Source of the DNA: Polaromonas sp.
GTDB lineage: Bacteria; Pseudomonadota; Gammaproteobacteria; Burkholderiales; Burkholderiaceae_C
Reading direction: 5' to 3'
Length of the DNA: 64,000 nt
Assembly: GCF_030689685.1 (NCBI RefSeq)
Contig: NZ_JAUYEY010000051.1
Location: forward strand, 1-64,000
The position numbers were made by a program, and so were the translations under genes. Position 1 is the stretch's first letter; the number at the start of each line of letters is the position of its first letter. A model generated the notes under the pieces. It had not been told where the DNA came from, ran no database searches, and was given only the letters and a program-made list of their open reading frames with translations. Shown one piece after another: positions 29,550-34,635 of the stretch.

Positions 29550-30539
29550 TCAGGCTTGCAGCGCTGCCCACATTTCCTTGTCGCGCTGTGCCGTCCAGAT
29601 GCGCGGATTCTTGATCCCGCTGGCCTCGTCGTAGGCGCGGCTCACGTCAAACGGCAGGCAGTGTTCGTAGATGAAGACCTGGCCGAAGATCGGGTCCATG
29701 CTTTGACGGGTGTGCGCCATCGCGCTTTTCAGGTCCATCTTCGCGGCGGCGGCTTCTTTGCCGCAGCGGTACAGCGTTTGTACCCACTGGACCGTGTAAT
29801 CAATCGCCTTGTTGACATCCGCAGCGCCTTTCATGGCTTCGCCGCGTCCCGGCACGATGGCTTGTGCCCCGAGCGCGCGCAGCGTTTCCAGCGTGGCCGG
29901 CCACTCTTCGAGCTGGGCGTCACCGGTATAGACGCCGGCGTTGTACTCGACCAGGTCGCCGGAGAACAGCACTTTTTCTTCGGCCACCCAGGCAATCGTG
30001 TCGCCACGCGTGTGGCCGGGGCCGGGGTGCCAGATCTGCACGCGCACGCCGCCCAGGTCGATCACCAGCTTGCCCGGAACTTCGCCTTTGACCGGGTTGC
30101 CGCCGGCGATCACCAGGGTCGGCCAGGTCAGGCCGGGCACGCTTTCGGCATTGCGGAACAGGCGCGGAAAACGCTCCATCTCACTTTGCATGTCCTCGGC
30201 ACCGCGCTCGACGATCAATTCGTACGTGCCCTGGCTGGCGATGACTTCGGTCGCGCCCTCGGCCACATAGGCGCTGGCGCCCAGCACACGCACCGCGTGG
30301 TAGTGCGTGAGCAGCACGTACTTGATCGGCTTGTCGCTGACGGCACGGATGCGTGCGATCAAATCCTGCGCCATCGCCGGGGTGGCGGTCGCGTCGCTGA
30401 CCATGATGAACTTTTCGCCGATGATCACGCCGGAATTGGGGTCGCCCTCGGCGGTGTAGGCCCAGCAATGCGCACTGAGTTGTTCAAAAGTGATTTTTTT
30501 GTCCGTGAGGTCGGACTGCGAGGCAAAAGCTTTGGACAT
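29550..30539 (-). CDS. MBL-fold metallo-hydrolase-like protein
   Basis: The 329-residue protein has the metallo-beta-lactamase fold with LLTHYHAVRVLGASAY and, later, HPGPGHTRGDTIAW and FSGDLVEYNAG. The first metal motif, HxHxDH in active enzymes, reads HYHAVR, so the Asp and third His are lost; one metal site may be missing or rebuilt. The reaction is unknown. Upstream is a 34-bp palindrome and a TetR gene, which probably controls it. A relic of a second copy follows the gene. It starts at the ATG at 30539 after ggagacc. Confidence 0.85.
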   Translation of the reverse strand: MSKAFASQSDLTDKKITFEQLSAHCWAYTAEGDPNSGVIIGEKFIMVSDATATPAMAQDLIARIRAVSDKPIKYVLLTHYHAVRVLGASAYVAEGATEVIASQGTYELIVERGAEDMQSEMERFPRLFRNAESVPGLTWPTLVIAGGNPVKGEVPGKLVIDLGGVRVQIWHPGPGHTRGDTIAWVAEEKVLFSGDLVEYNAGVYTGDAQLEEWPATLETLRALGAQAIVPGRGEAMKGAADVNKAIDYTVQWVQTLYRCGKEAAAAKMDLKSAMAHTRQSMDPIFGQVFIYEHCLPFDVSRAYDEASGIKNPRIWTAQRDKEMWAALQA

Positions 30540-30584
30540 GGGGTCTCCGTGGGTTGGCGGGTCCGTACTGGCCCTTGCCTGGAA

Positions 30585-30618
30585 TTTTACTATACGTAAC
30601 TTATTACGAATAGTAAAA
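30585..30618 (-). promoter_or_regulatory. Operator palindrome between tetR and the MBL gene
   Basis: Arms TTTTACTATACGTAA and TTACGAATAGTAAAA (15 bases, 14 complementary) face each other around ctta. It lies 45 bases upstream of the MBL start and 12 bases after the TetR stop, a likely TetR target controlling the MBL gene. Confidence 0.75.
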
Positions 30619-30629
30619 CGCTGAGACGG

Positions 30630-31226
30630 TCAGTTCAGGCCGCGCTCCAGCATGGTCACCACTTCTGCGGAAAACGCCCGATAACTCATGGGCCCGTCGG
30701 GGCGCATCCAGGTGAAGGTCCAGTTGATCATGCCGAACAGCATCATGGTCACGGCCGTTTGGTTGGCTGCGGTGATGCGCAGCGGGTAGGCGCGCTTGAG
30801 AAAACGCGTCATGGCCGAGACCACATCGCGCTGCCGGTCCAGGATCAGTTCGCGCTGAACGTCGCCCAGGAACTTGGTGTCGCCCAGCAGCGCAACATGG
30901 CGTGTGGCTGAACTTTCATACTGGTCGAGAAAGTTGCGGATCAGCTCATGCAGCGCGGCGCGGTCGTCCAGGTTCTTGCGCTGGGCACTGGCTTCGGTCT
31001 GGCCGATGATGGCCAGCAAATGCTGGGTGTAGCGGTCCAGCAGGTCGAACAGGATGGCCTCCTTGCTGCCATAGTAGTGGTACAGCCTGGCCTTGGAGGT
31101 GCCGCAAGCGGCGGCAATGTCGTTCATGCTGGCGGCCACGTAGCTGCGCTGCGCAAAACACTGGGCAGCCACATCGAGGATGGCTTCGCGCTGAAGCTCG
31201 TGGGTGGCGGATTTGGGACGGGCCAT
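30630..31226 (-). CDS. TetR-family transcriptional regulator
   Basis: This 198-residue repressor has an N-terminal helix-turn-helix (AILDVAAQCFAQRSY, then MNDIAAACGTSKARLYHYYG at about 34-53) and a ligand-binding C-terminal domain with FTWMRPDGPMSY. It is transcribed in the same direction as the MBL-fold gene, 90 bp upstream of it, with a large palindrome between. The ligand may be an acyl-CoA or aromatic compound, but nothing shows which. It is not adjacent to paaA and its presumed operator differs from the paa palindrome. Confidence 0.9.
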   Translation of the reverse strand: MARPKSATHELQREAILDVAAQCFAQRSYVAASMNDIAAACGTSKARLYHYYGSKEAILFDLLDRYTQHLLAIIGQTEASAQRKNLDDRAALHELIRNFLDQYESSATRHVALLGDTKFLGDVQRELILDRQRDVVSAMTRFLKRAYPLRITAANQTAVTMMLFGMINWTFTWMRPDGPMSYRAFSAEVVTMLERGLN

Positions 31227-31273
31227 GCGCTATTGTGAAGCACGGAGTCGGCTTTTAAATTGGACGTTGGCCG

Positions 31274-33496
31274 TCATTTTGGCATTGCCCACACACTCTC
31301 TTGGTCAATCACTTCGATGAACCGTGCTGCGGAAAAACCGTCCGTGTACAGCGTCCAGCACGGCGCACTGGGTGGAGATTCGCCATCCTCCCGCTTCTGG
31401 CGGAGCAAGCCATCGGGATCGTTGAGCAAGCGACGGTCGTCTCGCAGGGCAATCAAAACCTCTTCCAGCGACACCTTCAGGAAACCGCTGAAGCGCTGGT
31501 GATCGCATTCAATCGAGGTGTCGACGATCCAGCCCGTCATCGTGGGCATCCCGTCGGTGGATGAGAGCCCCAAGGGGTGCAAAAATTCCGGGTCCGAGGT
31601 CAGTGCATGACGCACAGCCCGCAGCTTGCGATGCAGTTGCAGGCCGGCCTTGCGCAAGGTGGTGGTGCCGTGCATCCATGCGTCTTTCTTCGACCGACGC
31701 AGGAAGGTGGACTTAACTTCCAGCACCAGCAAGTGGCCGTCGCGGGCGCACAGCAGGTCAATCTCTCCAGCGTCGCCCTCGTCGAGCACGGCAGGCTGGT
31801 GGTTGGCCAGTACGCGAAAACCTCGCCTTTCGAACTGTTCGCCCAGCCGCTGTTCAATGCGGCGGGTTTCCTCCCGCGCTTCCATGCGACGTGATCCGAT
31901 GCGCCGCAGGTTGTTGATGGCCGCTGTCGCGTTGTTCTGCAGTGCCACCATCCAGGGAAGCTGGAACAGATGACGCCCCATCTTCAGCATGGGCCGCTCC
32001 AGCAGCGTTGGCTGCAGGCCGGGTTCATGACTGCGCAGCCGTGCCGACAGAGCCGTCCAGTCACTGGTCCAGAAGTCGAGAATCGCTTCGGCGGCCTTGG
32101 CGTGGCCTTGGGGGAATTCGGAGCTAACGGTCCAGGACTTGATGCGTTCGACCTTGGCGGCCTTGTCCGACCATGTGATCGGAAAGCGGTTCTGCATGTC
32201 ACCCTGCAGCAGGCCGACGAATGCCAGCCGGCCCAGCGCAAGCCGACCATCGCCGAACTGCTCCAGATACTCGCCATAGGGTCGCAGGAAGTTCTTCATG
32301 AAGAAGGCCGTCATCAATTCCATCGCCAGCAGCGCCCGGAACACATCGACAGGCAGGCCGGATTCGGTCCGCACCGTTTCAGCCAGTCCGTAGACTTCCT
32401 GCAGCTGCAATTGCGAACCCATGGATTTGGCAAAGGCCTGCAGATTCGCTTCGAAATTCTCGGGACCGACCATCGCCAGCATCGACTCGGAAGCCATCAG
32501 CGCGTCCATGCCGCGGTAAAGCCAATAGCTGTGCAGGCGCGTGAGTTTCTCGCTATCGCGCTCCCAGGCGGCCCGCTGGCCGGTGTCAACCTCGAGAATC
32601 TCCAGACGGTCGCTGTTGCGCACAAAGCGGATGCCGTCGTCGTAGCTTAAGGCGTCGGTTGACTGCGAGATAAAGCTGTTCAGCTCCATTTGCGCGTCCA
32701 TCAAATGCTGGAACGCCCGGTACAGGTCGTCACGCGGAAGCGACCCTTCCCGTGAGGGGAAGAGAAACGGCGATAGGTGCTGCCGCAAGGAGCTTCCGAT
32801 GTCTGCATCGCTGAGTTGAAGGCTGCGCGGATCGCAGGTCGTGAGCTTCCAGGCGAGCAGATCGTTGATGGCATCCCATCCCTCCTGCATGTCGATATCG
32901 CCGTCAATCTTCGGGACGAGCCCGAGTGCACGAGGTACCAGATGCTCGAAGGCATAGAGACTGGCGTACACCAACAGCTCCAACGGCGTGAGCAGAGCCA
33001 GCGGCCGCTCGAACAACGCGACCGCCGCCCCGCGCTCACGGTGGGCCAGATCGAAAATCTCGAAGATGCGGACGAACTCGTCGAACTCGGCTGCATGCAC
33101 ATGCCGCAGGGCTTCGATCTCGCCCCAGCGAAGCGAGTGTTGCCGCAGCACAAGACCTGAGTAACGTGCCGCGCGGCGAACGGCCTCTGGGGTCACGGAA
33201 GCGACATGCGCGATCAGCGTGAGGTTCGCGTAGCGCTCCTGCCCCATGTAGCGCGCCAACGCCAGGACCATTGGCTCGGTCAGCCAAACGACCGACGGCA
33301 AGGCCATGAGAAAAGCAGACGACCAGAAAGCCTGGAGTCGATCCGTCGCCGTGAACTTGCCGCTTCTTGCAGGTTTGCCGTCCAGGAAGGCCTCGGCCAC
33401 AGTCACGGCAGCATCGTTAGCGGACTGTCCCAAATCCAATTGCCTGGAAAACAGCAACTCGTAGTAGCTGCTGCTGTGCTCGTCTGTTGTTGTCAC
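31274..33496 (-). CDS. Large protein with C-terminal PD-(D/E)XK nuclease-like domain
   Basis: A 740-residue protein of no family I recognise over its first ~530 residues, which are mostly helical and rich in Leu, Ala and aromatic residues. The C-terminal part carries RRIEQRLGEQFERRGFRVL (about 550), then GEIDLLC with Asp580 and VLEVKS with Glu593 and Lys595. The D-x12-ExK spacing is that of PD-(D/E)XK or NERD-like nucleases. It starts at a GTG that overlaps the Fic stop (GTGA), so the two are translationally coupled. A DNA-targeting role, possibly defence or stress, is inferred; it could also be a regulatory protein. Confidence 0.75.
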   Translation of the reverse strand: MTTTDEHSSSYYELLFSRQLDLGQSANDAAVTVAEAFLDGKPARSGKFTATDRLQAFWSSAFLMALPSVVWLTEPMVLALARYMGQERYANLTLIAHVASVTPEAVRRAARYSGLVLRQHSLRWGEIEALRHVHAAEFDEFVRIFEIFDLAHRERGAAVALFERPLALLTPLELLVYASLYAFEHLVPRALGLVPKIDGDIDMQEGWDAINDLLAWKLTTCDPRSLQLSDADIGSSLRQHLSPFLFPSREGSLPRDDLYRAFQHLMDAQMELNSFISQSTDALSYDDGIRFVRNSDRLEILEVDTGQRAAWERDSEKLTRLHSYWLYRGMDALMASESMLAMVGPENFEANLQAFAKSMGSQLQLQEVYGLAETVRTESGLPVDVFRALLAMELMTAFFMKNFLRPYGEYLEQFGDGRLALGRLAFVGLLQGDMQNRFPITWSDKAAKVERIKSWTVSSEFPQGHAKAAEAILDFWTSDWTALSARLRSHEPGLQPTLLERPMLKMGRHLFQLPWMVALQNNATAAINNLRRIGSRRMEAREETRRIEQRLGEQFERRGFRVLANHQPAVLDEGDAGEIDLLCARDGHLLVLEVKSTFLRRSKKDAWMHGTTTLRKAGLQLHRKLRAVRHALTSDPEFLHPLGLSSTDGMPTMTGWIVDTSIECDHQRFSGFLKVSLEEVLIALRDDRRLLNDPDGLLRQKREDGESPPSAPCWTLYTDGFSAARFIEVIDQESVWAMPK

Positions 33497-34551
33497 TTAA
33501 GTTGGTACCAAACCCCGCGCCCACTGCCACGTTGTTCCAGATTTCCGCGCTCCACCAACGCCCGAAAGTGCTGCTTGAGTGTATTGCGATTGCCACCTGT
33601 CAGACGGATCGCATCACCCATCGTCATGCGCCCATGGTCACGTGCAAACTCGACAATCTGCAGCGACAACTCGGGCAGTGCGGCGAGCACCAGCTTCTCG
33701 CGCTCGACCTTGCGGTTAAGCCTGCGCACCTGTTCCGCCATCGCCCGCAAGAAAAAGATTAACCACGGTTGCGAATCCGGGGCATCGGTCCGGATCGTGC
33801 CTTGTGTCTGCCGCAATGCGAGGTAGTACGCCTCCTTGCTCTGCTCGATCACGCTTTCGAGTGAGCTGTACGGCACATAGGCATAGCCGGCCTCTAGCAG
33901 CAGCAAAGTGGTCAGCACGCGGCTCAGGCGGCCGTTGCCATCCTGGAAGGGGTGGATCTCCAGGAAGACCACGACCCAGATGCCGATGAGCAGCAGCGGA
34001 TGGAGCCGGCCTGTTCCTTGATTCTCTCGCTCTTCGTTGAACCAGGCCACCAACTCGGTCATCAAACGTGGTGTATCGAAAGGCGCCGCGGTTTCGAACA
34101 CCACGCCGAGCTGCTTGCCGTCTTCGTCGAACGCGACCACGCTGTTCGATGAAGTCTTGTAGCTGCCGCGGTGCCAGGCATCCTTCTCGCTGTAGATGAG
34201 CAGGTCGCGGTGCAACTGCTTGATGTGGTTTTCGGTCAGCGCGATGGCCTGCCAAGAGGAGAACACCAGCTCCATGACCTCTGCGTAGCCGGCCACTTCC
34301 TGCTCGTCGCGTGTGGCGAACGACCTGATCTGCAGGTTGGACAGCAGACGCTCGACCTCGCGGTCCGACAGCTTGCTGCCCTCGATGCGGGTGGACGAAC
34401 CGATGCTCTCGATGGTGGCCACGCGCCGCAACGCCGAAAGGCGGTCCGGCGCGAGCGTGCCGAGCGCGCGCCAAGCCCCTTTGAACTCATCGACACTGGC
34501 GATGAGGCTCAAGATTTCAGGGGTGATCTGGACGCTGTTGGGCTGGATCAT
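33493..34551 (-). CDS. Fic-domain protein with winged-helix C-terminus
   Basis: Fic enzymes transfer AMP or related groups onto target proteins. From the ATG at 34551 the protein has 352 residues; GTG and ATG starts up to 27 bases upstream are in frame but overlap repeats. The core reads IHPFQDGNGRLSR with catalytic His200, intact. An N-terminal inhibitory helix (Ser53-x3-Glu57-Gly58, SSTRIEG) makes it a class II Fic. The C-terminus (about 290-352, ALPELSLQIVEFARDHGRMT and GGNRNTLKQHF) looks like a winged-helix DNA-binding domain. It is upstream of the nuclease-like gene, which it overlaps by four bases. Confidence 0.9.
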   Translation of the reverse strand: MIQPNSVQITPEILSLIASVDEFKGAWRALGTLAPDRLSALRRVATIESIGSSTRIEGSKLSDREVERLLSNLQIRSFATRDEQEVAGYAEVMELVFSSWQAIALTENHIKQLHRDLLIYSEKDAWHRGSYKTSSNSVVAFDEDGKQLGVVFETAAPFDTPRLMTELVAWFNEERENQGTGRLHPLLLIGIWVVVFLEIHPFQDGNGRLSRVLTTLLLLEAGYAYVPYSSLESVIEQSKEAYYLALRQTQGTIRTDAPDSQPWLIFFLRAMAEQVRRLNRKVEREKLVLAALPELSLQIVEFARDHGRMTMGDAIRLTGGNRNTLKQHFRALVERGNLEQRGSGRGVWYQLK

Positions 34552-34580
34552 TACACCCAATATTACACCCATTTGCACCC
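34551..34580 (-). promoter_or_regulatory. Iterated repeats over the Fic start
   Basis: ttacaccc occurs at 34551-34558 and again at 34563-34570, and a diverged ttgcaccc at 34573-34580. The spacing of 12 and 10 bases puts repeats on one DNA face. They could be binding sites for the Fic protein's own winged helix. Confidence 0.5.
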
Positions 34581-34635
34581 ATTCAATGTCAGACCTTCAC
34601 GCCGTTAGGCTTGACTTTGAAATTAGACTGCAACC

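Follow-up and report, generated by a model that had tools for sequence, protein, structure and literature searches.

Proteins that join a Fic domain to a helix-turn-helix (HTH) domain are already known to repress themselves: CccR of Yersinia pseudotuberculosis, which is described as secreted, represses its own promoter through its HTH domain and an inverted repeat (PMC9755527). Sofic, as presented in PMC12249575, is an anti-phage Fic protein whose C-terminal domain is needed for toxicity, and defence operons are regulated by BrxR (PMC9122601), RptR (PMC12255303) and CapK/CapS (PMC13373217), according to the accounts of each. We analysed a stretch of 64,000 nucleotides (nt) of Polaromonas sp. 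DNA (contig NZ_JAUYEY010000051.1, positions 1 to 64,000; the window), in which a Fic gene with direct repeats over its start overlaps the gene of a 740-residue protein that is likely nuclease-like. These repeats most likely serve as the operator of the Fic protein, whose predicted recognition helix tracks their sequence across related loci; the pairing with the 740-residue protein is rare.

Going by PMC9755527, the Fic protein of the window resembles CccR in having a Fic domain, an N-terminal inhibitory motif and a C-terminal HTH domain; it differs in its sites: direct repeats, with spacings of 10 and 12 nt, lie at 34551-34582 in place of an inverted-repeat operator of the CccR type, with its two inverted 10-base-pair (bp) boxes 26 bp apart. 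With Sofic, as described in PMC12249575, it shares a class II Fic domain followed by a C-terminal domain, and it matches the PADLOC SoFic profile (149 bits, 5.2e-44, residues 22-357); the two differ in the next gene, which here encodes 740 residues and overlaps the Fic gene, whereas Escherichia coli Sofic has the 47-residue AS1. The NCBIfam SoFic equivalog cut-off is missed (50.7 bits against 550). BrxR, RptR, CapK/CapS and CapW (PMC9122588) are DNA-binding regulators at varied defence operons, as is proposed here for Fic; the first three differ, going by their descriptions, in not being Fic enzymes. A search of the Creative Commons-licensed literature in PubMed Central found, among the papers listed, no report of a direct-repeat operator or code of Fic proteins, the inverted repeat of CccR aside.

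Pfam family PF02661 matches the Fic protein at 5.7e-15. The active-site motif HPFQDGNGR follows the class II pattern HxFx(D/E)GN(G/K)R, with His200 (numbered in the 352-residue protein from the ATG at 34551) invariant in 35 of 35 sequences of alignment A3, and SSTRIEG, N-terminal to the core, follows the class II inhibitory pattern (S/T)xxxE(G/N) and is at least 90% conserved in the same alignment; the protein is predicted to act by AMPylation. Pfam HTH matches at the C-terminus are weak and below cut-off, and in the structure model helices 311-318 and 322-334 (the HTH helix) are followed by two strands, which gives a winged helix. A sequence-only reading of the window had described these motifs, the winged-helix tail, both open reading frames (ORFs) with their GTGA overlap, and three repeats at the Fic start, all of which were borne out (Table 1). 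An in-frame GTG at 34578 falls within the repeats (iterons); residues are counted from either start, 331-338 from the GTG being 322-329 of the 352-residue protein. The family is large: all of the 8000 candidates scored matched. The same genome carries a second, different Fic gene (L001, G000:C10, 401-1618), by eye without such repeats.

The three iterons are all of the exact matches of the repeat word in the window. Counted with one mismatch, the word is not over-represented across the window (8 occurrences against 13.6 expected); what is unusual is its tandem layout. Because a two-copy pattern with at most 2 mismatches is present once in the 4.11-Mb assembly, the site looks local. In an alignment, by their starts, of Fic relatives taken from genomes, from plasmids and from viral contigs, repeats were found at the Fic start in all three sources. 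Among 104 related loci (loci being dropped where the match begins after residue 23 or less than 75 bp lies upstream, and near-duplicates being kept), 78 have at least three copies of an 8-mer in an 81-bp segment at the start, far more than dinucleotide shuffles (299 of 3120) or segments elsewhere in the same loci (143 of 2806); thinning to below 90% Fic identity leaves 52 of 71 loci with at least three copies, and the locus of the window has three. The 236 spacings in the 78 loci include 107 of 10 nt and 49 of 12 nt (156 of either). The repeat word differs by lineage, being TTGGGTGTAA here and ATCGGGTATA, TTGGATGTA, TCCGGTATAA, ATCGGATAA and, at about 40% identity, CTCACATA elsewhere. Repeats of such a kind are typical of iteron origins, and related Fic genes are also found on plasmids and viral contigs; a role as iterons of the replication or integration type in a mobile element, rather than as a Fic operator, is nevertheless very improbable, given that the repeats stand at the start of Fic whether the gene is on a chromosome, a plasmid or a viral contig, and that their sequence tracks the recognition helix.

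For each 8-residue span of Fic, correspondence with the repeat sequence was expressed as a partial correlation that allows for how far the remainder of Fic has diverged (103 rows with the window, 99 with two units agreeing in at least 6 of 10 bases, 68 after 90% thinning). The highest value among the 68 thinned loci, r 0.468, falls on residues 331-338, in the recognition helix (mean of all spans 0.027, standard deviation 0.123), and this helix supplies the top span in 11 of 12 test variants. By mutual information, the best two pairs are R331 with repeat base 3 and K335 with base 5, H337 ranking fifth and Q336 seventh. Base 3 is T where residue 331 is R and C where it is another residue in 52 of the 55 loci, out of 68, that have the same base in both units (Fisher 4e-10, without kinship correction). 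Because the recognition helix best tracks the repeat word after correction for divergence, Fic is most likely self-regulating on its own putative operator: the C-terminal winged helix would bind the tandem direct repeats of about 10 bp (usually two to five, spaced 10 and 12 nt) over the start of its own gene, and bound Fic would repress its own transcription.

Several points weigh against this reading, the chief caveat on the helix-repeat association being kinship. The label permutations, of which none of 2000 gave a value as high as that of span 330-337 (r 0.460), do not keep kinship. The classes of residue 336, which pair with repeat base 8 in 56 of the 58 loci, again out of 68, with the same base in both units (Fisher 2e-14, without kinship correction), were defined after looking at the data. 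On the Fic tree base 3 changes five times, with four independent pairs of which about two agree, none oppose and two are equal, and base 8 changes five times, with two independent pairs, both in agreement; five changes per base are too few for a formal phylogenetic (independent-pair) test to reach significance. Residues of the Fic domain outside the winged helix also appear in the mutual-information ranking (R184 third and fourth, S146 sixth), and winged-helix residues, 62 of 343 overall, are in slight excess among the best 20, where there are 7 (P 0.049). A second correlation peak, at residues 53-67 counted from the GTG (34378-34422 of the window), is top in one of the 12 variants. Fewer than three repeat copies are present in 26 of the 104 loci, a sigma-70-type promoter was looked for and neither one nor a promoter consensus was found, and most related Fic genes stand alone, without a coupled partner. 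The second peak spans the inhibitory motif, a region that tracks the repeat sequence more than expected.

Table 1. Features of the Fic locus, in coordinates of the window
Feature	Position	Strand	Remarks
Iteron 1, ATGGGTGCAA	34573..34582	minus	
Iteron 2, ATGGGTGTAA	34563..34572	minus	10 nt from iteron 1
Iteron 3, TTGGGTGTAA	34551..34560	minus	12 nt from iteron 2; ends on the A of the Fic ATG
Fic gene, 352-residue class II protein with predicted C-terminal winged helix	33493..34551	minus	
Inhibitory motif SSTRIEG	34378..34398	minus	residues 52-58 of the 352-residue protein
Fic active-site motif HPFQDGNGR	33928..33954	minus	His200 of the 352-residue protein
Predicted recognition helix, first part, RNTLKQHF	33565..33588	minus	331-338 from GTG 34578; 322-329 of the 352-residue protein
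GTGA stop-start overlap of the Fic gene and the 740-residue protein gene	33493..33496	minus	
740-residue protein, N-terminal part helical, with a NERD-like PD-(D/E)XK domain (predicted)	31274..33496	minus	
Asp580, predicted nuclease core	31757..31759	minus	from alignment
Glu593-x-Lys595, predicted nuclease core	31712..31720	minus	from alignment
Inserted cassette, about 3.4 kb, ends approximate	31248..34634		flanked by a tetR-like gene and, judged by eye, a tfoX-like gene

The 740-residue protein is likely a DNA-cutting protein with a PD-(D/E)XK/NERD-like core, as judged from conservation and profile matches. D580, E593 and K595, from which the sequence-only reading had proposed such a core, are invariant, as are E548 and Q620, in all sequences aligned (23 of 23 and 66 of 66). 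The Pfam NERD model scores below its gathering threshold (16.8 against 22.1 bits), and the PADLOC profile 'Viperin-associated NERD' (PDLC02906) matches at 2.6e-21, a likeness confined to the C-terminal part (residues 467-736). The sequence-only reading knew no family for the first ~530 residues; the absence of a known family applies to the helical N-terminal part alone, because relatives of the protein are numerous (of 8000 scored, 718 reach E<=1e-3). The best structural match is Upx (PDB 9wuf), at a TM-score of 0.26, 11% identity and a root-mean-square deviation of 7.6 in VIA; there is no Upx profile among the PADLOC matches, the likeness is no more than a lead, and membership of the Upx family was not accepted.

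The Fic gene and the 740-residue protein gene form one insertion, and the same place is empty in two genomes of the genus. These two, out of 41 genomes searched, carry the tetR-like neighbour gene at 95-97%, and in both the alignment leaves about 20 bp between the tetR-like and tfoX-like flanks at the point where 31248-34634 stands in the window. The GC content of the insert is 0.604 against 0.614 for the window, and a comparison of the insert ends found no shared word of at least 6 bases. Because a defence-type PD-(D/E)XK gene overlaps the Fic gene, the nuclease would fall in a Fic-controlled unit, probably on a shared transcript. The explanation that we favour, and consider reasonably probable, is that a SoFic-like class II Fic protein represses itself through its winged helix on the repeats, that the nuclease lies in the unit under Fic control, and that both came as one insertion. 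A Fic protein of toxin type that keeps its own expression low would act as a self-limiting gene of abortive infection, and if infection lifted the repression, the nuclease would rise as well; either gene may act against phage. If this is true, it gives a reason for the winged helix of SoFic-like Fic proteins and a testable operator for a large family, adds a toxin-type enzyme to the regulators found at defence operons, and, through the association of helix and repeat, makes specificity swaps directly testable. The window at 29550-31226, bordering the insertion, holds genes of metallo-beta-lactamase fold and TetR type.

The sequence-only reading had gone further, suggesting a defence, stress or toxin-type system in which Fic modification controls the nuclease; the two genes would then form a dedicated system of two components, with Fic AMPylating the nuclease protein or controlling it in some other way. 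The gene overlap fits such a system, and another such pair is hinted at once, indirectly: P0135 (Fic, 90%) and P0004 (large protein, 79%) come from contigs of the same length, 6359. Against it, the two genes are seldom found together. The large protein occurs in 3 of 399 genomes of the order, one of these being a fragment; among 101 relatives it is present in its own genome and as one 37-residue match elsewhere, both counted in the three. Close Fic proteins (at least 60% identity over at least 300 residues) were found at 30 places in 28 of the 399 genomes, and both proteins in the own genome alone. None of 28 loci with relatives of the large protein (23 on genome contigs and 5 plasmid stretches, with flanks of at most 8 kb and far shorter in several) has a close Fic gene; a 25%-identical Fic lies 2.3 kb from the nuclease relative in one (L028), and another (L005) carries an annotated Fic gene at a distance of about 4 kb. 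A Polaromonas gene closely related to the nuclease gene (82% nucleotide identity) has no Fic within 8 kb on either side. No nuclease relatives were found in viral contigs or phage records, and no common partner was seen by eye beside them among the neighbours listed. A conserved Fic/nuclease pair was therefore rejected, and a dedicated system is highly unlikely; the pair is a rare arrangement. The sequence-only reading had made its case hang on co-occurrence beyond close strains, which is largely absent, and on the large protein not proving to be of a known family unrelated to nucleases, which it did not. In Polaromonas sp. P2-4 (L012, 8001-10217), a close nuclease relative stands without Fic, its protein match split between frames.

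What lies behind related Fic genes bears on whether the nuclease belongs to the Fic unit at all. Among 66 genome loci with a full Fic gene and at least 450 nt behind it (the window excluded, and ORFs of at least 150 residues counted), a co-directional ORF starts within 30 nt of the Fic stop in 7 and in none of the other 59; on plasmids, 8 of 9 Fic genes have no annotated same-strand gene within 100 nt, in a gene table that is incomplete. Three of the seven tight ORFs are defence genes. In one locus (L066, G175:C20, 6001-13746) a repeat-bearing Fic gene directly precedes JetA (1.2e-221), JetB, JetC and JetD, a complete Wadjet set; the ORF-finder start of JetA is a TTG, the likely one being an ATG 2 nt past the Fic stop. 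The others are a type ISP restriction enzyme right behind Fic (L079) and, in L084, a DNA methyltransferase that has type III as well as type II matches, a similar methyltransferase lying 67 nt behind Fic in L086, which is near L084 in sequence. Of the remaining tight ORFs, one has a hemerythrin domain and no PADLOC match (L137), two have no Pfam or PADLOC match (L069, L081) and one was not scanned (L158). At greater distances, an HKD-Snf2 helicase lies 57 nt behind Fic on a viral contig (L113), and PDC-S06, OloA and a weak ThsA match lie 194-550 nt behind other Fic genes. A SIR2-like start overlapping Fic in L092 breaks off after 96 codons when read in three frames and was dropped.

PADLOC matches at E<=1e-5 were obtained for 8 of 20 genes behind Fic, hand-picked as plausible genes or by distance, and for 7 of 20 controls drawn randomly from the same loci, one of them the JetD of a Wadjet set behind a Fic gene, so defence enrichment is unsupported; at E<=1e-50 the counts are 6 and 3 of 20. 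Fic loci are defence-rich, and defence genes are as common elsewhere in them as behind Fic. Because control genes match PADLOC as often, the claim is limited to the existence and recurrence of arrangements with Fic before a defence gene. These counts, with the 59 genome loci and 8 plasmids lacking a close follower, suit a stand-alone SoFic-like gene whose repeats autoregulate Fic alone and behind which the nuclease landed by chance in a defence-rich place. We regard this as possible but unlikely, since the two genes overlap by GTGA, a single insertion holds both, and other Fic genes directly precede defence genes.

An extension of the favoured explanation, in which the nuclease is under Fic control, is offered tentatively and is itself rather doubtful: the Fic-repeat unit may be a portable control cassette of immunity, in which a toxin-type enzyme would read its own operator through a predictable helix-to-repeat code, repeatedly placed as first gene of unrelated defence operons. 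The operons led would be this nuclease, Wadjet, type ISP restriction and the methyltransferase; one protein would poison the infected cell and release the operon, and the weaker peak at the inhibitory motif would fit a coupling of DNA binding to control of enzyme activity.

Some other arrangements around Fic genes were also seen. In L066, a short ORF with an integrase-type arm domain follows the Wadjet set on the opposite strand. On a viral contig (L121, 1906-6317), a 1107-residue Cas9-like protein is encoded 92 nt behind a distant Fic (36%), and on further viral contigs (L109-L112 and L114) a co-directional ORF, which in the two scanned, L109 and L114, is DUF2460, begins 46-85 nt past Fic relatives (58-59%).

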